Source: Pseudomonadota bacterium | GTDB lineage: Bacteria; Pseudomonadota; Gammaproteobacteria; JAKAQQ01 | Direction: 5' to 3' | Length of the DNA stretch: 64,000 nt | NCBI GenBank assembly: GCA_021810635.1 | Contig: JAJZIH010000006.1 | Span: 1-64,000, forward strand | In this document: piece after piece, positions 4,721-52,840 of the stretch | How the letters are laid out: every line of letters begins with the position of its first letter | Numbering within the stretch: position 1 is the first letter of the stretch | The notes under the pieces: model-generated | What the model was told of the DNA's origin: nothing | The model's input: the letters and a program-made list of their open reading frames with translations, nothing else | Databases searched by the model: none | Position numbers and translations under genes: made by a program

Positions 4721-6160
4721 TCAGTTCAGGGGGCGGAGCAGTCGGAGGAGACCCGCCGCGAACCGGCGGGAGGCCGGTCCCGTGCGCTGCTCGCGCCAGC
4801 GGACGGCGGCCTTTCTGTGCACCTCGGAGTAGGTCGGGTAGGGCTGGATCAGGCCGAGGAGGCGCGAGAGGGAGAACCGCTCTCGCATCGCAAGCACGAT
4901 CTGGGCGATGCTTTCCCCGGCGTGCGGCATGCAGAGCGACACACAGGCGAGACGTCCGTGCCGGTCGATCCCGAAATGGGCGACGCCCCGAGCGACCCCG
5001 TCCGTCACGGCGCGGTTGAGTTCGGAGAGGGGGATTTCGATGGTTTCGACCACCCGGTCCCGGTCCTCTGGATCACCTCCGACGGAAGCGATCTCCGGAT
5101 CCGTGTAGGTCACGCGGGGAATGGGACTCGTGGCCCAGCGCAGGCGGATGAGTGGACGAAACAGGGCGTTCAGGGCCGCATAGGCACCTTGCTGTCCGGC
5201 AACGTGGGTGAAATGGATTGGGCTCGTCACATCCCCTGCGGCATAAAGGCCCCCCCGGGATGTTCTCAGGAACGCATCGGTCCGGATCCGGCCGGAGGGA
5301 TCCAACGCGAGACCGAGCGCCTCGAGGCCTTGGGTGCGCGCGCGCCGCCCCACGGCGATGAGCAGGGCGTCGAAGGGGAGGGTTGTGGGGCTGCCGGTTC
5401 CGGTCTCGACCACCAGCCGGAACGAACCCTCCGCCCGCTCGACCCGCAGGGCCCGGGCGGAAGTGAGGATCCGGGTGCCTTCCTCTTGGAGGGCCGTGGT
5501 GAGTGCTGCCGAGATCGCGGCGGGTTCCTGGCCGAGGAGCCGGGGTGCAGATTCAACGATCGTGACCCGGCTGGCGAGACGGCGGTAGGCCTGCCCGATC
5601 TCGCAGCCGAGCGGTCCGCCTCCGAGGATGACGAGATCGCGGGGCTGCCGTTCCAGGTCCCAGAGGGTTTCACTCGTAAACCAGGGGGCGCCGTCTAGTC
5701 CGGGCAAATCGGGAACGACAGGGGTCGCACCGGTCGCAATGACGAGGCTCCGCGCGGTGAGCCGGGAGGTGCCGATCCGAACGGACGCTTCCGATTCGAC
5801 GATGGCGGGGCCGTGCACGACCATCGCGCCGAGTGCCCGGTAACGGGCTTCCGAGTCCTCCGGTTCGATGCGTGCGATCACACGCGTGAGGGAGTCCCGG
5901 AGGGCGGCGAAATCGATGACCGGCTCATGAGGGGCGATGCCGAAGGGGCCGCCCTGCCGCTGGGCGTGAGCCAGCGCGGCGGCGCGCAGAAGCGCCTTGC
6001 TTGGAATGCATCCGGTGTAGAGGCAGTCGCCGCCCAGGCGATGGCGCTCGACCAGAATGACCCGGGATCCGGCCCGGGCGGCGACCGAGGCGGCCGCGAG
6101 ACCGGCGGCCCCACCACCCACGACCAGGAGATCCGACCGCCGCGTGGGGACCCCCGTCAT
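4721..6160 (-). CDS. FAD-dependent pyridine nucleotide-disulfide oxidoreductase
   Basis: A 479-residue class I flavin disulfide reductase. Visible in order are the FAD fold (LLVVGGGAAGLAAAS), the redox-active pair in CLYTGCIPSKALL, the NAD(P) fold (LVILGGGPLGCEIGQ), the second FAD motif (GGLYAAGDV) and a dimerisation domain ending in IQPYPTYSEVHRKAA. The usual His of the His-Pro-Thr-x-Ser-Glu motif is replaced by Tyr, as in mercuric-reductase-like and RclA-like relatives rather than true dihydrolipoamide dehydrogenase. No heavy-metal-associated domain or C-terminal Cys pair is present, so mercury reduction is unlikely. The substrate is unknown. I start at ATG 6160; the 32 codons upstream look non-coding. 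Confidence 0.88.
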   Translation of the reverse strand: MTGVPTRRSDLLVVGGGAAGLAAASVAARAGSRVILVERHRLGGDCLYTGCIPSKALLRAAALAHAQRQGGPFGIAPHEPVIDFAALRDSLTRVIARIEPEDSEARYRALGAMVVHGPAIVESEASVRIGTSRLTARSLVIATGATPVVPDLPGLDGAPWFTSETLWDLERQPRDLVILGGGPLGCEIGQAYRRLASRVTIVESAPRLLGQEPAAISAALTTALQEEGTRILTSARALRVERAEGSFRLVVETGTGSPTTLPFDALLIAVGRRARTQGLEALGLALDPSGRIRTDAFLRTSRGGLYAAGDVTSPIHFTHVAGQQGAYAALNALFRPLIRLRWATSPIPRVTYTDPEIASVGGDPEDRDRVVETIEIPLSELNRAVTDGVARGVAHFGIDRHGRLACVSLCMPHAGESIAQIVLAMRERFSLSRLLGLIQPYPTYSEVHRKAAVRWREQRTGPASRRFAAGLLRLLRPLN

Positions 6161-6759: not shown

Positions 6760-7632
6760 ATGACCGGGGAACCTGCCTGCCGGGTTGTGCGCTATGGCGA
6801 TCCGGAAGGTTTCCCGGTGCTCTATCTTCACGGATTCCCCGGCTCCCACCGCGAGGCCGGCCTGGCCGAACCCTGGGTCGGAGGCCTGCATCTCGCTCTT
6901 TATGCCATCGACCGTCCCGGGTATGGGGATTCCCCAGGCTGTCCCCAACTGCCGCTGGCCGGCTGGCCGGGCTTTCAGAAGGAACTGGCCGATGCGCTGG
7001 GTCTCACGCGCTATGGGGTGTTGGCGATCTCGGGAGGGGCGCCCTACGCCTACGCTCAGCATCACGAAGCCGATTCCCGGCTTGCCTTCACGCTGATTCT
7101 GTGTGGACTTCCCCCCGTTACGGGACGGGAGGATTACCGTCGGCTGCCGTTTCTCATGCGCTTCCACGCTGTCCTGCTCCGGAGCGTTCCGAATCTGGTT
7201 GCGGCTGAGGCCAACTGGATCGCCCGGCGGGTCCGGCGAGATCCCGGCTGGCTGTGGCGCCGGGTCTACCGCCAGGTTCACGACTGTGACCGGGAGGTTT
7301 TGACCGATCCCGGAATACGGTCTCTGCTTGAGGACTCCTGGAGGGTGGGGCTCAGCCACGGCGGCCAGGGTCTGATCCAGGACCTCGTGCGCTACCTCTC
7401 GCCTTGGCCTTACGCCGGTCGGCCGCCAGGACGGAGCCCTCTTTGGATTTTTCACGGTCGGGAAGACCGGATCGTCACACCTGACCGGGTCCTGGATTTT
7501 GCGTCCAGGATACGGGGTGCCCAAGTCAGGCTCATTGAGAATGAAGGGCATTTTTCTCTGCCGTTGCGCCAGGCAGACGACCGGTGGGCGACCTTGGCCC
7601 GAGAGCTCTTGCGTGGTTCGCAAGTACACTGA
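6760..7632 (+). CDS. Alpha/beta-fold hydrolase
   Basis: A 290-residue hydrolase with the canonical triad: nucleophile Ser in LAISGGAPYAYA, acid Asp in IFHGREDRIVTPD and His in ENEGHFSLP. The oxyanion-loop motif LYLHGFPGS is near residue 25. The fold and the GxSGG elbow are typical of proline-iminopeptidase/esterase-like enzymes of broad substrate range, so I do not name a substrate. The start has AAAGGAGG eight bases upstream. It follows the lipoprotein gene by 37 bases and may be co-transcribed with it. Confidence 0.88.
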   Translation: MTGEPACRVVRYGDPEGFPVLYLHGFPGSHREAGLAEPWVGGLHLALYAIDRPGYGDSPGCPQLPLAGWPGFQKELADALGLTRYGVLAISGGAPYAYAQHHEADSRLAFTLILCGLPPVTGREDYRRLPFLMRFHAVLLRSVPNLVAAEANWIARRVRRDPGWLWRRVYRQVHDCDREVLTDPGIRSLLEDSWRVGLSHGGQGLIQDLVRYLSPWPYAGRPPGRSPLWIFHGREDRIVTPDRVLDFASRIRGAQVRLIENEGHFSLPLRQADDRWATLARELLRGSQVH

Positions 7633-7757
7633 AAAACCGTGATAAAACGCAGTCGGTGTACGGGGGGGATCCTTGCTGACCGAAAGGGACGCGCGTATGA
7701 TGAAATCACGGAGCCGGTCAGTTCCGGCTGGTAAATAACTGTGGAGGAGTGTTTCTC

Positions 7758-8099
7758 ATGTTGCAAAAATCTTTCGTACTCGGTGCCGCGTTGGGCGTTC
7801 TGGCCCTAGGCCCGCTGGCGCTTGCGGCCGGCAGCGTGCCGTCGCACCCGATGATGCATCACAAGATGATGACTGCAGCCCAGCACCGCGCTTGGCTCAA
7901 GAAGGTTCAGCTGGCACTGGATCATTCAGGTGCCCATCTCAAGGCGGATGGCCTGTGGGGGCACAAGACCATGATGGCGATCAGCTCGTTCCAGAAGAGT
8001 CATGGGCTCAAGGTGACCGGCCACCTCAACCATGCGACCCTCGCTAAGCTGGGTGTGAGTTGGGCCTTCGGGACAAAAAAAGCCTGGCATAAAAAGTAA
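7758..8099 (+). CDS. Secreted peptidoglycan-binding-like protein
   Basis: The 113-residue protein has a signal peptide (VLGAALGVLALGPLALAAG), a His/Met-rich linker (HPMMHHKMMTAAQH) and a single PG_binding_1-like repeat: KKVQLALDHSGAHLKADGLW…KTMMAISSFQKSHGLKVTGH. That repeat normally binds murein and is fused to a hydrolase; here it stands alone. The Met/His cluster could bind metal, which is inference only. ATG 7758 is favoured over the GTG at 7749 by spacing from GGAGG. A strong terminator follows the gene. Confidence 0.8.
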   Translation: MLQKSFVLGAALGVLALGPLALAAGSVPSHPMMHHKMMTAAQHRAWLKKVQLALDHSGAHLKADGLWGHKTMMAISSFQKSHGLKVTGHLNHATLAKLGVSWAFGTKKAWHKK

Positions 8100-8125
8100 T
8101 CCTTTCGCGTCGATTGTCAGACCTG

Positions 8126-8154
8126 AAACCGGCGGGGTGACCCGCCGGTTTTTT
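8126..8154 (+). terminator. Rho-independent terminator
   Basis: An 11-bp stem (AAACCGGCGGG paired with CCCGCCGGTTT) around a GTGA loop ends in a T tract, 27 bases after the peptidoglycan-binding gene. The A-rich left arm also makes it usable on the other strand, where it would terminate mutM, whose stop codon touches it. Confidence 0.85.
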
Positions 8155-8969
8155 CAGCGCTGGCAGCAGGGGCAGAAAAAGGTGGAACGCTGCCCGATCC
8201 GGATGCGCCGGATGGTCTCTCCGCAGGCGCGGCAGGCCTCTCCCGCGCGTCCATAGACCTGCCAGTGGACCCGAAAACCGCCGGGATCGCCGTTGATGTG
8301 ACGGTAGTCCCGGAGCGTGCTGCCGCCTTCCGCGAGCGCCTCCTCGAGGACGGTACGGATCGCGGTACCAAGGATGAGGGCGCGGGCGGTTCCGATCCGG
8401 CGTCCCGGGCGCCGGGGATTGATGCCGGCCCGAAACAGGGCCTCACTGGCGTAAATGTTGCCGACTCCGGCGACCAGGCGTCCGTCGATGAGGAGTGACT
8501 TGACGGGTGCGGCGCGGGCTCTCAGCGCCTGCGCCCATTCCGGACCGCCGAAGTCAGGTTCCAAGGGTTCCGGGCCGAGGTCCGCGAGGAGCGGGTGGAG
8601 ACCCGGCGGGCCATGCCCCCCGAGCAGAAAGCCGAACCGGCGCGGGTCGTGCAACCGGACCGCCTGATGGGAAAGCCGGATCTCCCAGTGGTCGTGGAGA
8701 GTGCGCCCGGAGCCGGGTTCGACGAGGCTGAGCCGGCCGGACATGCCTAGGTGGACGAGCAGCCAGGTTCCACCCTCGAGATGGAAAATTAGGTATTTGG
8801 CCCGGCGGGCAAGCGCGGTGATGTGCAGGCCGGAAACCGACCCGGCGAGGTCGGGTGGAACCGGGTAGCGTAAACGGGGCTGCCAGACCGCGAGAGAACA
8901 AATGCGGTGCCCGACGAGGTGAGGCTCGAGCGCTCTCCGGATCGTCTCAACTTCGGGGAGTTCGGGCAT
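8154..8969 (-). CDS. mutM: Formamidopyrimidine-DNA glycosylase
   Basis: The 271-residue protein removes oxidised purines (8-oxoguanine, FaPy) from DNA and cleaves the abasic site. The catalytic N-terminus MPELPEVETIRRAL has Pro1 (after Met removal) and Glu2. LVAGVGNIYASEALFRAG is the helix-two-turn-helix and LTS-like Lys region, and the C-terminal zinc finger is CRACGETIRRIRIGQRSTFFCPCCQ. The start is fixed by the MPELPEVET motif, 60 codons into a longer open frame. The start overlaps the upstream DUF4340 gene by 23 bases. With mutY in this window it forms part of the 'GO' repair system. Confidence 0.97.
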   Translation of the reverse strand: MPELPEVETIRRALEPHLVGHRICSLAVWQPRLRYPVPPDLAGSVSGLHITALARRAKYLIFHLEGGTWLLVHLGMSGRLSLVEPGSGRTLHDHWEIRLSHQAVRLHDPRRFGFLLGGHGPPGLHPLLADLGPEPLEPDFGGPEWAQALRARAAPVKSLLIDGRLVAGVGNIYASEALFRAGINPRRPGRRIGTARALILGTAIRTVLEEALAEGGSTLRDYRHINGDPGGFRVHWQVYGRAGEACRACGETIRRIRIGQRSTFFCPCCQR

Positions 8970-46061: not shown

Positions 46062-46394
46062 CCAACTCAACCTTCAACTTGACGTTCATCGGACAGGTCT
46101 TTGGTCCGTCCGATTTTTTGTCCTTAATCATTGTGACCCGTCGTCGAAGGCTCATTCTTGGGCTAAACTATGGAGACTCCACGAAGGGGAAGACCATGGC
46201 CGGCGGGTGGGCGAAAGACGGTGCCGTACAGCAGCAGATCGATGCCAGCCTGGAAGATGCATTGTGGTTATTGCGGGCGCGGCTCCCGGAAGGGGAGGGC
46301 CTTGAACGTTGTGAGCGGTGTCACGCCGAAATCCCTGAAGGCCGGCGCCTCGCGCTTCCCGGTGTGCGTCTCTGCCTGACCTTTCAAAATGAAA
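46062..46394 (+). repeat. 333-bp direct repeat, left copy
   Basis: Nearly identical to 52508-52840 in the same orientation (a handful of base differences and compensating single-base indels), period 6446 bp. It contains the promoter region and first 66 codons of a DksA/YbiI-type gene. Sequence outside the block is unrelated on both sides. Confidence 0.92.
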
Positions 46395-46507
46395 CACCAT
46401 TTGGTATCCGATGTATGCCGATACGCGCAAGCCAGTGGGAGCGTGTACGGATCCGTTTCTGCAGGGCCATCTCCAACGGCGTCCGCGTACTGCTTCCTTG
46501 TTCATGA
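46196..46507 (+). pseudogene. Broken copy of the DksA/YbiI zinc-finger gene
   Basis: The first 66 codons equal the intact gene at 52642 except Trp for Arg in ALWLLRARL and Phe for the fourth zinc-ligand Cys (CLTFQNE versus CLTCQNE). After NE the sequence is unrelated (TPFGIRCMPIRASQWE…) and runs to TGA 46507, giving 103 codons. The conserved YbiI ending NRRG.KDSQLR is missing. With one ligand lost and the C-terminus replaced, a functional zinc finger is unlikely. Confidence 0.85.
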
Positions 46508-46638
46508 TGTGGTCCATCCTCGCCAGATTATGCATGCCGTTCGGATTTGCCTTGCTGGTGTTTGTGTCCGTCTATTTGTGGTTTGTCTATCGGTGGCTCA
46601 AGGGCCTGATTTCTTTCAGTCTGTGGAAAGTGACATGA
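46504..46638 (+). CDS. Possible small single-helix membrane protein
   Basis: A 44-residue frame: MMWSILARLCMPFGFALLVF, then VSVYLWFVYRWLKGLISF and SLWKVT. It has one strong hydrophobic helix and a positively charged end. Its ATG overlaps the stop of the broken zinc-finger frame, and the frame can be extended upstream to 46411. I recognise no family. It precedes the chorismate-mutase/UbiT gene by 43 bases on the same strand and could be co-transcribed. Confidence 0.35.
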   Translation: MMWSILARLCMPFGFALLVFVSVYLWFVYRWLKGLISFSLWKVT

Positions 46639-46681
46639 GCTTTCGCGTGCATTGCCGGCGTCGCCACCGGCCGGGTGTTTG

Positions 46682-47623
46682 ATGCATACTGCCGAGTTGC
46701 TGCCAACTCCCACCGGACCGCATGTACAGACTCCCGGTCGTTCTGGCGATGTGCGCGCGCGATCTGTGGCAGCCGGGCCGATTGAGCTGCACGCGATACG
46801 CTCTCTGATCGACCGGGTCGACGAGATGTTCCTGGTCCTGCTGGCGGGTCGGCGCCAACTGGTGCGACGGGCCATGGCGCTCAAGCAGCGCGCCGGGCTT
46901 CCTGGACGCAACCCTGAACGCGAACGTCAGGTGCATGACCGGGCACAGGCTTTTGGTGCGAAGCTTGCTCTCTCCAATGGTGTGACACGACAATTGATGG
47001 AACTGCTCATTGGGGATGCCTGTGCATTGCAGGGTCTGTCGTCATCCGGAGAACGAACCGTGAGTCATTTTTCGTTGCAGCATGAATCAAAGCACCTACC
47101 GGTGTTGGGTTTTTCCCAGGCGAAAAAACTCCTGCGGCTATTGCCGCCTCCTGCGCGCTTGAGTACACCGTTGCGCTGGATATTGCCGTCGCCGCTGTTG
47201 CGCGACCTGCTGCGCAGCATGATTTTGCGCGTCATGGCGGGGCCTCTCTCCCAAGGCAGGCTGGATGACTTGCAGGGCCGCAGGCTCGGGGTCGAAATCA
47301 CTGACCTCAAGCTGCGCTGGGTGGTCGAGATCGGTACACGCGATTTGCAAGTGCAGGTTCCTGGTGAAGAGGCGGAGTCGACCGTGCGCGGCAGTGCCAC
47401 CGATCTTTTACTCCTGGCCAGCCGTCTCGAAGACGCCGATACACTGTTTTTCCAACGCCGCCTGCAACTAGTCGGCGACACTGAGCTGGGGTTGCTGGTG
47501 CGTAACCTTCTTGATCAACTTCCGTGGGAGACGATTCCGCTGGATGTCCGGGTGTTGCTGAATCGAGGTGCCAGGTTCGCGCGGCTGGCACGCGCGGCTC
47601 ATCATGCCGAAATGATCGCCTGA
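46682..47623 (+). CDS. ubiT: Chorismate mutase (AroQ-type) fused to UbiT (SCP2)
   Basis: A 313-residue two-domain protein. Residues about 35-120 are an all-helical AroQ chorismate mutase (HAIRSLIDRVDEMFLVLLAG, RRQLVRRAMALKQRAGLPGR). By eye, Arg40, Arg58, Lys68, Arg80, Glu81 and Gln117 match E. coli P-protein Arg11, Arg28, Lys39, Arg51, Glu52 and Gln88, while Asp48 is Asn77. Residues about 140-313 are the SCP2 lipid-binding domain of UbiT (GRRLGVEITDLKLRWVVEIG, ASRLEDADTLFFQRRLQLVG), about the length of E. coli UbiT. UbiT is needed for oxygen-independent ubiquinone synthesis with UbiU/UbiV, found convergent next door with a 22-bp overlap. Fusion could link chorismate use to the pathway; this is inference. 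Confidence 0.88.
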   Translation: MHTAELLPTPTGPHVQTPGRSGDVRARSVAAGPIELHAIRSLIDRVDEMFLVLLAGRRQLVRRAMALKQRAGLPGRNPERERQVHDRAQAFGAKLALSNGVTRQLMELLIGDACALQGLSSSGERTVSHFSLQHESKHLPVLGFSQAKKLLRLLPPPARLSTPLRWILPSPLLRDLLRSMILRVMAGPLSQGRLDDLQGRRLGVEITDLKLRWVVEIGTRDLQVQVPGEEAESTVRGSATDLLLLASRLEDADTLFFQRRLQLVGDTELGLLVRNLLDQLPWETIPLDVRVLLNRGARFARLARAAHHAEMIA

Positions 47624-48504
47624 GCGGAGTCTGGCACCTCATCGCCGGGCATTTGTTGCCTGCCGGCCTGCCCGTGCCAGTAGCCGTTTTCCAGGCCGAC
47701 CCGCTGCGCGGGGAGACCGGAATCGATGGTCTTGCGAAAGCGCGCGACCACGGCCGCCATGTCATTTGCCTGCGGGTAGAGGCGCAGCAATTGGATGCCC
47801 GCTGTCTGAAGTTCGGCGATGTCCGGCGCCAGATCGCAGTACTCGCCGCCCTGGATTTGAATGCCATTGATGGTCAAAAAGGGGCTGCCCTCGCGCGTCT
47901 TCAATGGCAGGCCATCCGGATAGTCGATGCAGCGAAAACCGCAGTCATCCTTGGACCGATCCAGCGCTCGTGCGGTATAGCAGCGCGCTGAGTAGGCCAG
48001 TGGCAGGCGCCCCCAGGCAATCACCTCGAATTCCGGCAGCGGTTCGCCGCTGTCCTTGAACTCCCTCAGCAATTCACGGCCGAGTTCAATTCCCAGCACC
48101 AGCCGCTGCATGCCGTCCTCACGCAACAGGCGCAAAGCAACATGGTTGTAGACGTTCAACCCCGGGCCACCGATGAACGGCAGCTTGCGCTCGCGCAAAA
48201 TCTGTACCGCAGACATGTCATTGGCCTCGACCCGGAGGCGTCCGTTTTCTGCAAGACGCGTGAGCGCCGACAATTCCGACTCGGCTTCCAGAAGCGCCAG
48301 CGAGGACAGAACGATCTCATGCCCGCTTTCAGCGAGTTCGTTCGCCAGCGCGATCCAGTCACGCGTGCCGAGTTCGCGGCGCTTGCTGCAGACGGTCTCG
48401 CCGAGATAGATCGTGTCCAGTGGCCATTGCACCGCCTCGCGATAAAACTTGAACACGTCATCGCGGTGCCAGAAATATTGCAGTGGCCCGAGCGTGAGTT
48501 GCAT
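47602..48504 (-). CDS. ubiV: Oxygen-independent ubiquinone hydroxylation protein UbiV (peptidase U32 family)
   Basis: The 300-residue protein has Cys39 (LGETVCSKRREL), Cys175 (YSARCYTARA), Cys188 and Cys192 (KDDCGFRCIDYP). The 13- and 4-residue spacings equal those of the 4Fe-4S ligands of E. coli UbiV. With UbiU it hydroxylates the quinone ring using prephenate as oxygen donor under anoxia. I start at ATG 48504 (MQLTLGPLQYFW); an upstream frame is spurious. It lies 11 bases after ubiU. The end overlaps the convergent mutase/UbiT gene. Confidence 0.95.
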   Translation of the reverse strand: MQLTLGPLQYFWHRDDVFKFYREAVQWPLDTIYLGETVCSKRRELGTRDWIALANELAESGHEIVLSSLALLEAESELSALTRLAENGRLRVEANDMSAVQILRERKLPFIGGPGLNVYNHVALRLLREDGMQRLVLGIELGRELLREFKDSGEPLPEFEVIAWGRLPLAYSARCYTARALDRSKDDCGFRCIDYPDGLPLKTREGSPFLTINGIQIQGGEYCDLAPDIAELQTAGIQLLRLYPQANDMAAVVARFRKTIDSGLPAQRVGLENGYWHGQAGRQQMPGDEVPDSAQAIISA

Positions 48505-48515
48505 GTGTGCTTGCC

Positions 48516-49511
48516 TCAATGCCAGGAACGGTGATAAGGACCCAGCGTGGTCTGGTGGCCTTCGGCGTGAGCATCGAGCTCGTGTTGCCATGCTGGATCG
48601 CCGGCCGCATTGGGCTGGGCTTCGAGCTGGTCGATCGCCTGTCGCCAGACCCGTGTCACGGCACCCACGTAGGCCAGCCCGCGCTGCCGTCCCTCGATCT
48701 TGAGTGCTGCGACTCCCACAGCCTTGAGCATCGGCAACAGCGACAGCGTATTCAAACTGGTGGGCTCTTCCAGGGCATGGAAAATTTCATCGCCGATTTT
48801 GTAGCGGCCCTTGCATACCGTCGGGTAGCCGGCGGGTTCGTGCGCCTGGTAGCGATCGATCAGAACGTTGTTCAAATGCACGCTGCGCACGCCGCCTGGC
48901 TCCTCATCCCAGCGCACGAATTTGGCCGGTGAACAGACACCGTGGCGGTTTGGCGAAACACCGGTCACGTAACTGGACAGCTGACAGCGTCCCTCCACCA
49001 TGATGCACAGACTGCCGAAGGCAAATACCTCGATGGGCACAACCTGGCGTTTGCAGAGCCGTTCGACCTGCTGCAGCGAGAGCACCCTGGGCATAACGGC
49101 GCGCGCGATGCCGAAGCGTTCGCGGTAGTAGCGGAGGGCGGCGTGGGTGGTTGCGGAAGCCTGCACCGAAAGGTGGCGCGGAAGGTCTGGGTGGCGCCGG
49201 GTCGCATAGTCGAGTACGCCGAGATCGGCGCAGATGATGGCGTCGACATCGAGCGCGGCTGCCCGATCCACGGCGTTTTGCCAGGTCCTGATATGCGCAG
49301 AAGTAGGATAGGTGTTCAGCGCAACGTAGACCTTGCGGGCGTGCGCATGGGCATAGTCGATACCCTGACGCATGTCGTCTTCGCTGAAATTGAGACCCGC
49401 GAACGCGCGCGCATTGGTCTGGTCGCGAAAGCCGATATAAACCGCGCTGGCGCCGTGATCAATCGCGGTTTTGAGCGCAGGCAAATTTCCCGCCGGACAG
49501 ATCAGATCCAT
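48516..49511 (-). CDS. ubiU: Oxygen-independent ubiquinone hydroxylation protein UbiU (peptidase U32 family)
   Basis: The 331-residue protein begins [20 protein letters not shown], the U32 start, and carries Cys169 and Cys176 (GSLCIMVEGRC), Cys193 (HGVCSPA) and Cys233 (TVCKGRY). These match the E. coli UbiU 4Fe-4S ligands within one residue. Total length is the same as E. coli UbiU. GGAGGCC precedes the ATG. It forms a heterodimer with UbiV. Prephenate, the product of chorismate mutase, is the reported oxygen donor for UbiU/UbiV, which gives the fused mutase a plausible purpose. Confidence 0.96.
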   Translation of the reverse strand: MDLICPAGNLPALKTAIDHGASAVYIGFRDQTNARAFAGLNFSEDDMRQGIDYAHAHARKVYVALNTYPTSAHIRTWQNAVDRAAALDVDAIICADLGVLDYATRRHPDLPRHLSVQASATTHAALRYYRERFGIARAVMPRVLSLQQVERLCKRQVVPIEVFAFGSLCIMVEGRCQLSSYVTGVSPNRHGVCSPAKFVRWDEEPGGVRSVHLNNVLIDRYQAHEPAGYPTVCKGRYKIGDEIFHALEEPTSLNTLSLLPMLKAVGVAALKIEGRQRGLAYVGAVTRVWRQAIDQLEAQPNAAGDPAWQHELDAHAEGHQTTLGPYHRSWH

Positions 49512-49642
49512 GTGGCCTCCTGAGATTGCGATGGGCGGATTTCCACGTTGCGTGCCGAGCGAGACGCGGTACGGCACGACATCGCCTCGGCACCCGGCAG
49601 GCTGACGCAGTGAATGGTGTACGGCGAGTGCGGCCATTTCAT
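49502..49642 (-). CDS. Possible 46-residue ORF bridging ubiD and ubiU
   Basis: The frame starts [20 protein letters not shown], with ATG overlapping the ubiD stop (ATGA), and ends EATWI ten bases into ubiU. It fills the 127-base gap in the operon. No family is recognised and Cys/Ser-rich content is unremarkable. It could be a coupling leader for ubiU rather than a functional protein. Confidence 0.3.
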
Positions 49643-51129
49643 GGCTGATGCTCTACCGGGACGCTGGAGAACACGCGTGACCACAAGGCATCGACACGTC
49701 GCTCAATGTCCGGATCGAGGGTGATTGGGCGTCCCCAGGTCCGGTCGGTCTCGCCGGCCCATTTGCTGGTGGCATCCAGTCCCAGTTTGGAACCGAGGCC
49801 AGCCACCGGGCTTGCGAAATCCAGGTAATCGATGGGGGTGCGCTCGATGAGCACGCTGTCGCGCGCGGGATCGACCCGTGTCGACAGCGCCCAGATCACC
49901 TCACTCCACTGCCGCGCATCGATATCTGCGTCGACTACGATCACGAACTTCGTGTAGGTAAACTGGCGTAGATACGACCAGATGCCCATCATCACGCGGC
50001 GTGCATGGCCCGGATATTGCTTGCGGATGCTGACGATGGCAATCCGATAGGAACAGGCTTCCGGGGGTAGGTAAAAATCCACGATTTCGGGAAATATCTT
50101 TTGCAAGATCGGTACGAAGACCTCGTTCAATGCCACTGCCAGGACCGAAGGCTCGTCATGTGGTGCACGTCCCATGTAGCTGCCATGATAGATCGCGCCG
50201 TTGCGCAGCAGCATGCGCTGCACGGTCAACACGGGGAACCGGGCCTGGCTGTTGTAGTAGCCCGTGTGGTCACCAAACGGCCCTTCCATGGCGGTGTCGC
50301 CGGGATTGACGACACCTTCGAGCACGATCTCTGCACCAGCAGGCGCATCCAGGCCGGTGTGCGCGCTGTGCCAGACGCGGGTGCGGTCGCCACGCAGCAG
50401 GCCGGCGAACTCGTATTCGGACAAGGTGTCGGGGATGGGCGCCACGGCCGCCAGCAGCGTGGCCGGGTCGGCACCGATGGCGACCAGGACCGGGAACGGC
50501 TGGTCTGGACAGGCCGCCTGCCAGTCGGCGAAATCCAGTGCGCCGCCGCGATGCGGCAGCCAGCGCAGGATCACCCGGTTCGGAGCAATCACCTGTTGCC
50601 GGTAAATTGCCACGTTCTGGCGCTTCTGTCGCGTGCCGCGGGTGACCACCAGGCCGAAGGTGATCAACGGCCCAACATCATCGGGCCAGCACCGCTGGAT
50701 GGGCAGCCGGGCCAGATCGACATCGGCTTCCTCGACGACTTGATCGAGAAACGCAATCTCGTGCACGACCTTGGGGGTGATATTCGCGAGCTGGCCGAAT
50801 TCGGGCCACATCTGCAGTGCTTCACGCACGGACCCGGGCCAGCGAGGCTCCTTGATGGAGGCCAGCAACTGGCCCAGTTCGCGCAGCGAGGCCAAGGGTC
50901 TTCCAGCTAGCGCGGCCTCGATCCGCGCACGATGCCCGAACAGGTTGCCGAGCATGGGATGGTCTGAACCCCGCGGATGCTCGAACAACAGCGCCGGGCC
51001 ACCAGCCCGCAGCGTGCGTAGGCAGAACGCCGTGCTCTCCAGTTGCGGATCAATCGGCTGCGTGATCCTTCGCAGAGAATGACGCGTCTGCAGATGGTCG
51101 AGAAACGCGCGCAGATCGTAAAAAGCCAT
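49639..51129 (-). CDS. ubiD: UbiD-family (3-octaprenyl-4-hydroxybenzoate) decarboxylase
   Basis: The 496-residue prenyl-FMN-dependent decarboxylase has the family start [20 protein letters not shown] and [34 protein letters not shown] supplies the Glu-Arg-Glu-type active-site surroundings, and [20 protein letters not shown] is the C-terminal signature of the octaprenyl-hydroxybenzoate group. It removes the carboxylate of the ubiquinone precursor; the UbiX flavin prenyltransferase is not in the window. It lies 16 bases after the chimeric gene. Placement between quinone genes supports the ubiquinone assignment over aromatic degradation. Confidence 0.95.
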
Positions 51130-51145: not shown

Positions 51146-51766
51146 TTAGAGCGCGCGCGGCATCGCGTAGAACGGAAAAAAGAACCGCAGCGGATGAATA
51201 TCGAAGGGCGTATGCAGAATGTTTGCAGGTAAATCGTTCAACTTGACCAGCAGAAAGCCGCAGCTATCTGGTCGATAGTATACAAACCAGAAAAATACGA
51301 CGGAAAACACACTGAAGCCGAACAGACCTTTTGCGGTGTAATACAGGCGAAACAAGATCCCGTCACGCGGCCACGATGATTCGTCTTCTTGCGCAGGCTG
51401 CTGGTTCTGTTGGCTCGGTGGACCCTTGAGTCGCCGCAGCAGTAACGGTTCGGCCAAAGTGTCGAGCATCCAACCTTCGCGATTCAATAGTTGTACCAGT
51501 CTTTTCTTCCTTTCCACGAGAAGCCAGTGTCCGGGTTCCATCCAGCTTAAGTCAACATCAATCGGCGGACCGGAAGCCTCAACGGCTTTCCCGAGATTCG
51601 GGTTAACAATCGAAATGTTTGAAAACAGACCGACGGTACCAGCGCCCAAGACACCGGAAGAGGCGATGAAAAACTGTCTGCGGCCGGTTCGTACCCCGCT
51701 CTTAGGACGAATGGAATCCACAATCCTCTTGCCAGCAGGTACTTTTTGAGTCGGGCTATTCGCCAT
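51146..51766 (-). CDS. Chimera of Rieske protein N-terminus and cytochrome b C-terminal segment
   Basis: A single 206-codon frame joins parts of two cytochrome bc1 subunits. Residues about 25-133 match the Rieske protein: twin-Arg membrane anchor ([20 protein letters not shown]), then [20 protein letters not shown] and [17 protein letters not shown]. The 2Fe-2S domain (CTHLGC, CPCHGS) is absent. Residues about 137-206 match cytochrome b after its haem helices: [20 protein letters not shown], the HTPFDIHP (PPHI.P) block and [12 protein letters not shown]. It looks like an internal deletion in a petAB operon, kept in frame. It cannot transfer electrons as a Rieske protein. It heads the ubiD-ubiU-ubiV operon. 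Whether the protein has a role, or only the promoter is used, is unknown. Confidence 0.8.
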
Positions 51767-51812: not shown

Positions 51813-51854
51813 AAAGTAATCCCCTGTACCTCGGGTTGGCTTGATTCAGATCAA
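51813..51854 (-). promoter_or_regulatory. FNR-activated promoter of the ubiD-ubiU-ubiV operon
   Basis: TTGATTCAGATCAA (51841-51854) is a perfect FNR palindrome. On the minus strand TACTTT (51818-51813) occupies -12 to -7 if the box is centred at -41.5, giving a start at 51806, 40 bases before the first ATG. A weaker half-site TTGATCCGATCTAA lies at 51801-51814, over the start. The geometry is that of a class II FNR-activated promoter. Confidence 0.78.
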
Positions 51855-52507: not shown

Positions 52508-52840
52508 CCAACTCAACCTTCAACTTGACGTTCATCGGACAGGTCTTTGGTCCGCCCGATTTTTTTGTCCTTATCATTGTGACCCGTCGTCGAAGGCTCA
52601 TTCTTGGGCTAAACTATGGAGACTCCACGAAGGGGAAGACCATGGCCGGCGGGTGGGCGAAAGACGGTGCCGTACAGCAGCAGATCGATGCCAGCCTGGA
52701 AGATGCATTGCGGTTATTGCGGGCGCGGCTCCCGGAAGGGGAGGGCCTTGAACGTTGTGAGCGGTGTCACGCCGAAATCCCTGAAGGCCGGCGCCTCGCG
52801 CTTCCCGGTGTGCGTCTCTGCCTGACCTGCCAAAATGAAA
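52508..52840 (+). repeat. 333-bp direct repeat, right copy
   Basis: Pairs with 46062-46394. It holds the upstream region and first 66 codons of the intact zinc-finger gene, which continues past the repeat to 52908. Confidence 0.92.

Follow-up and report, generated by a model that had tools for sequence, protein, structure and literature searches.

In the window, i.e., the whole stretch of 64 kb of DNA that was analyzed, a gene encoding a two-domain protein converges with genes of ubiquinone synthesis. The following features were assigned at this locus:

46682–47623, plus strand: CM-UbiT fusion gene (chorismate mutase, CM, joined to UbiT), one open frame of 313 codons
46796–47032, plus strand: AroQ-type chorismate mutase domain (CM_2), based on profile, residue alignment and fold match
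47036–47176, plus strand: linker between CM and UbiT, largely disordered in the model, with near-neutral evolution
47183–47530, plus strand: UbiT SCP2 domain, based on NF047962 and fold match
47602–48504, minus strand: ubiV, NF047965 with 347.4 bits; the listed ORF 47602–48591 was trimmed to the family start
48516–49511, minus strand: ubiU, NF047963 with 524.9 bits; the listed ORF 48516–49637 was trimmed to the family start
49639–51129, minus strand: ubiD-type decarboxylase, based on profile matches
51146–51766, minus strand: chimeric ORF, a Rieske remnant fused to a C-terminal piece of cytochrome b, as seen when aligned with the bc1-type genes that are intact in L020, and supported by a weak Cytochrom_B_C match
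51841–51854, no strand: FNR-type palindrome TTGATTCAGATCAA, 5' of the minus-strand operon ending ubiD-ubiU-ubiV

An earlier note on this DNA had described a single frame of 313 codons that joins an AroQ mutase to a UbiT-like SCP2 domain, and this description holds. The frame is open, and its product matches CM_2 (Pfam) at residues 39–117 with 48.9 bits (cutoff 27), SCP2 (Pfam) at residues 190–278 with 59 bits (cutoff 21.3) and the UbiT equivalog NF047962 (NCBIfam) at residues 168–283 with 120.7 bits (cutoff 46.9). Modeling of the monomer with AlphaFold2, for which 71 fused sequences were used, resulted in a mean pLDDT of 85.5 and two confident domains joined via a disordered linker with pLDDT below 50 in part. 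The note had also proposed a structure prediction for each domain. In Foldseek comparisons, the modeled CM domain features the AroQ three-helix fold and matches E. coli chorismate mutase (1ecm_A) with an rmsd of 0.9 A over 83 columns, and the modeled UbiT domain matches UbiJ-SCP2 (6h6p). L020 encodes a homologue (4788–5732) that starts with ATG and is similar in length. A frameshift in the real genome, raised in the note as a caveat, or an assembly artefact was ruled out, since the two-domain frame recurs in 77 proteins and is intact in a finished genome, i.e., the complete genome of Dyella jiangningensis (L029, CP007444).

The assignment of the neighboring genes as ubiV and ubiU, both convergent with CM-ubiT, was likewise borne out, as both pass the NCBIfam equivalog cutoffs. 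Cysteines are present at positions 39, 175, 188, and 192 of UbiV and at positions 169, 176, 193, and 233 of UbiU; with four in each protein, this is the pattern expected of the Fe-S sites according to the E. coli positions. The fusion is thus co-located with ubiU and ubiV, each encoding the four cysteines of such sites, which is the setting expected of a UbiT. The palindrome at 51841–51854 represents the only exact match to the FNR consensus TTGATN4ATCAA within the 64 kb, and no FNR-type site was found immediately 5' of the CM-ubiT gene of the window. Upstream of fused genes in general, FNR-type sites occur at 10 of 73 loci vs. about 2 expected, with the loci sharing ancestry. As this enrichment is modest and the ancestry shared, little weight is placed on the FNR-type sites of fused genes. 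FNR control of ubiTUV is reported to be conserved across Pseudomonadota (PMC11707229).

The ubi cassette was likely acquired horizontally. The AsmA-like protein encoded next to it shares 63% identity with its counterpart in G002, a member of the same genus, but the UbiT of the window shares only 36% with the UbiT of G002. In the UbiU tree, the window's UbiU groups with that of L020 (90% identity), and at the DNA level a stretch of 4.4 kb of the cassette shows 84% identity to L020. The CM-ubiT gene of L020 lies 3' of an apparent cytochrome bc1 set (Rieske, cytochrome b, and cytochrome c1, as judged from translations), of which the window features only remnants of the region, one on each side of the cassette. 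These are the chimeric Rieske/cytochrome b ORF at 51146–51766 and, at 46395–46644, the tail of a gene for a small membrane protein. Moreover, two direct repeats of 300 nt each (46062–46361 and 52508–52807; 98% identical) flank the cassette. An ORF encoding a DksA/TraR-type zinc finger overlaps with the copy at 46062–46361. Contamination of the contig is disfavored by the identity of the AsmA-like neighbor to the protein of the same-genus genome.

The two-domain architecture, a search for which had been suggested in the note, was found in at least 77 fused CM-UbiT proteins, the window's included, mostly of Lysobacterales. The contig scan yielded 354 relatives, and the best 80 of these 354, which were kept, belong mostly to Lysobacterales (Dyella, Rhodanobacter, Lysobacter, Thermomonas, Stenotrophomonas, Xanthomonas, Arenimonas). 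The fusion is therefore not peculiar to the genome of the window and is common in Lysobacterales. All 14 fused genomes that were checked individually (mostly Lysobacterales) encode at least one CM_2 beyond the fused one, so that the fused CM is an extra copy there. In four sequences closely related to the cassette (L059, L067, L086, L087), the UbiT frame carries no CM, and they stand beside the window in the UbiU tree. This makes a loss of the CM domain likely in these sequences and suggests that the fusion can be dispensed with if another mutase is available. In the CM tree, the fused proteins and the stand-alone mutase of G357 form one supported clade (99/90), which is nearest, weakly (92/71), to T-protein-like mutases. 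The stand-alone mutases adjacent to ubiT fall apart from this clade without support, and a single origin of fused and stand-alone ubiT-linked mutases was neither demonstrated nor rejected (AU p 0.3). The G357 mutase (L143 2549–4141) has no UbiT in frame and carries Arg for the catalytic Lys39. In Arenimonas maotaiensis and a relative (L032 11447–12511 and L024 11349–12434), a prephenate dehydrogenase with a C-terminal CM is encoded directly 5' of ubiU, and in L021 a chorismate mutase/prephenate dehydrogenase gene (6852–8225) converges with CM-ubiT in the place taken by ubiV in the window.

Besides the fusion, CM and ubiT also occur as neighboring genes. Within the window's family, a stand-alone CM adjoins ubiT in G002, G004, G006, and G008, and in other families it does so in G048, G151, G184, G284, and G367. 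The two genes are divergent with an FNR-type palindrome in the shared intergenic region in G048, G184, G284, and G367, and the CM gene lies 3' of ubiT on the same strand in G151. Within the class sample, UbiT exceeds its cutoff in 98 of 369 genomes, and in nine of the genomes sampled a CM is either fused to ubiT or encoded no farther than about 1 kb from it, vs. about 0.1 expected by our own arithmetic from one to two CM genes per roughly 3 Mb. These observations support a link between CM and ubiTUV that recurs in several families, as fused and as neighboring genes.

Concerning the catalytic residues, the earlier note was right in listing Arg40, Lys68, Arg80, Glu81, and Gln117 as kept and Asp48 as replaced by Asn, whereas its Arg58 has to be corrected to R57. 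According to the alignment, R40, R57, K68, R80, E81, and Q117 of the window correspond to R11, R28, K39, R51, E52, and Q88 of E. coli CM, while N77 and A113 take the places of D48 and S84, so that the E. coli-type combination of D48 and S84 is absent from the window's domain. In E. coli numbering, R11, R28, K39, R51, and E52 are invariant in 77 of 77 fused proteins, window included, and together with two Asp they are the only invariant CM columns of the fused proteins; Q88 is kept in 75 of the 77, with the fused protein of G007 lacking Gln or Glu at this position. Position 48 is occupied by D in 72 and by N in five of the 77 proteins, and position 84 by A in 71. In the PheA mutases from other Gammaproteobacteria, positions 48 and 84 are occupied by R and C, respectively. 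Due to this variability, neither position was counted as AroQ-defining, and D48N and S84A provide no argument for inactivity. The stand-alone ubiT-linked mutases also keep R11, R28, K39, R51, and E52, and where alignable they (L136–L140, L145–L147, L149) feature no Gln or Glu at position 88, which renders their activity, like that of the fused G007 protein, less certain.

Comparison of the window with L020 revealed a dN of 0.088 and a dS of 0.739 for the CM domain (dN/dS about 0.12), 0.088 and 0.706 for the UbiT domain (about 0.13), and 0.624 and 0.708 for the part of the linker that was compared (about 0.9). The similar ratios of both domains indicate that purifying selection on CM is as strong as on UbiT. 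The assignment of the N-terminal domain as a chorismate mutase is supported by purifying selection as well as by its sequence, its modeled fold and the invariance of catalytic residues, and we infer from the conserved residues that this domain is probably catalytically active.

The family of the window offers further insight into the use of prephenate. Prephenate dehydratase (PF00800) was found in none of the nine family genomes and prephenate dehydrogenase (PF02153) exceeded its cutoff in none of them, three of the nine being at least 94% complete, while the control genomes were positive in 14 of 14 cases for each profile. Prephenate thus apparently does not feed the synthesis of phenylalanine and tyrosine there. 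CM_2 occurs in six of the nine genomes with one copy each, in exactly the six that feature ubiT, and all six copies are located at the ubiTUV locus; neither CM_2 nor ubiT was found in G001, G003, and G005. In the genome of the window, which is 86.8% complete, no CM_2 gene was detected other than that of the fusion. The search in the family covered mutases of the CM_2 type, prephenate dehydratase and prephenate dehydrogenase.

For UbiUV, prephenate was still no more than a hypothesis in 2023 (PMC10470549), and the U32 enzyme TrhP requires prephenate (PMC6599085). The earlier note had relied on a report that UbiU/UbiV use prephenate as hydroxyl donor, and a review names prephenate as the compound from which the hydroxyl groups stem when ubiquinone is made anaerobically (PMC11574389, citing Ferizhendi 2024 PNAS). 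With prephenate reported as the oxygen donor, the fusion looks like a built-in donor supply. It is probably a bifunctional protein, with a mutase dedicated to supplying prephenate to the hydroxylation by UbiUV. The AroQ domain would convert chorismate to prephenate, and the C-terminal UbiT (SCP2) domain, judging from what is known of its family, would handle the polyprenylated ring intermediates. Prephenate could thereby be made at the site of UbiT, UbiU, and UbiV, and the Fe-S proteins UbiU and UbiV, for which the donor role is taken from the literature, would use it as hydroxyl-oxygen donor to hydroxylate the ring without O2. With the mutase tethered to UbiT, the supply of prephenate to UbiUV would be local, proximity-based and co-regulated. 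Both the dedication of the mutase and the supply by proximity are deduced from the arrangement of domains and genes, and true substrate channeling to UbiUV may be possible.

The Ala in place of S84 in most fused proteins and the position 88 without Gln or Glu in the stand-alone ubiT-linked homologues would also suit a non-catalytic CM domain, which might bind chorismate or prephenate, acting as a scaffold, carrier or sensor, and present prephenate to UbiUV or regulate UbiT. The invariance of R11, R28, K39, R51, and E52 and the near-invariance of Q88 in the fused proteins argue against such a role, as does the finding that no other CM_2 gene to make prephenate was detected in the window's family, and it is regarded as unlikely. 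A mutase that feeds prephenate mainly to tRNA/rRNA modification and not to ubiquinone might be suggested by the prephenate requirement of CmoA, TrhP, and RlhA (PMC6599085), but the fusion to UbiT, the recurrent adjacency to ubiTUV, the FNR-type intergenic regions shared with ubiT and the joint absence with ubiT render this highly improbable. Being the only CM_2 of its genome, the domain might further be taken for an ordinary mutase of phenylalanine and tyrosine synthesis that was fused to UbiT by chance. Yet neither the dehydratase nor the dehydrogenase (over cutoff) was found in the nine family genomes, the fused genomes that were checked elsewhere encode further mutases, and those members of the window's family that lack ubiT also lack CM, so that a chance fusion deserves very little credence. 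AroQ folds include the isochorismate pyruvate lyase PchB, but the alternative in the earlier note, a chorismate- or isochorismate-lyase-like enzyme forming 4-hydroxybenzoate, the first ubiquinone precursor, is barely conceivable, since the match to the isochorismate lyase family is very weak (12.5 bits, below the cutoff of 126, vs. 48.9 for CM_2), the Pfam profile Chor_lyase (PF04345) has no match in the fusion protein, and the genome encodes its own UbiC chorismate lyase elsewhere (83.1 bits).

A dedicated mutase that provides UbiUV with prephenate therefore remains the preferred reading. In the window's family, it might go further, and the following is put forward tentatively, as something short of probable: these organisms may make prephenate only as an oxygen donor, having lost the aromatic amino-acid branch and kept the sole mutase at ubiTUV, where the tether to UbiT would deliver prephenate directly to UbiUV.

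That prephenate serves hydroxylation as an organic oxygen donor is a recent concept, and the finding bears on the question of how U32 enzymes obtain and use this compound. A mutase fused to ubiT or recurrently found beside it offers independent genomic support for prephenate chemistry outside E. coli. Moreover, the fusion represents a single protein in which point mutations can uncouple the supply of the donor from ubiquinone assembly, and a family devoid of prephenate dehydratase and dehydrogenase provides a natural test of whether prephenate is kept for hydroxylation.

The author of the earlier note knew of no description of the fusion, and the literature searched contains no paper that brings chorismate mutase and UbiT together. 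Pelosi 2019 reported only a ubiT-ubiU fusion, and neither Chobert 2024 nor the quinone survey of 2026 uses the term 'mutase' in its main text. The CM-UbiT fusion is provisionally considered undescribed so far, as the key prephenate paper (Ferizhendi 2024 PNAS) lay outside this search.

Among known systems, the UbiT of E. coli (NF047962) resembles the fusion in its SCP2 domain, its linkage to ubiU and ubiV and its FNR-type regulation. However, it comprises 174 aa that are mostly SCP2 (PMC6747719), whereas the fusion features an AroQ mutase domain before SCP2. The ubiT-ubiU fusion of Zymomonas mobilis (PMC6747719) is likewise a gene fusion of UbiT within the same pathway; there, UbiT is joined to the hydroxylase UbiU, in the window to a candidate prephenate-making enzyme. 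The CM domains of E. coli PheA (P-protein) and TyrA (T-protein) share the AroQ three-helix fold and the catalytic residues with the fusion, but their partner domains turn prephenate into precursors of phenylalanine and tyrosine, while the partner of CM in the fusion is UbiT. Finally, TrhP and RlhA are prephenate-dependent U32 hydroxylases and thus U32 proteins like UbiU and UbiV, but they act on RNA, and no linked mutase is described for them in PMC6599085.
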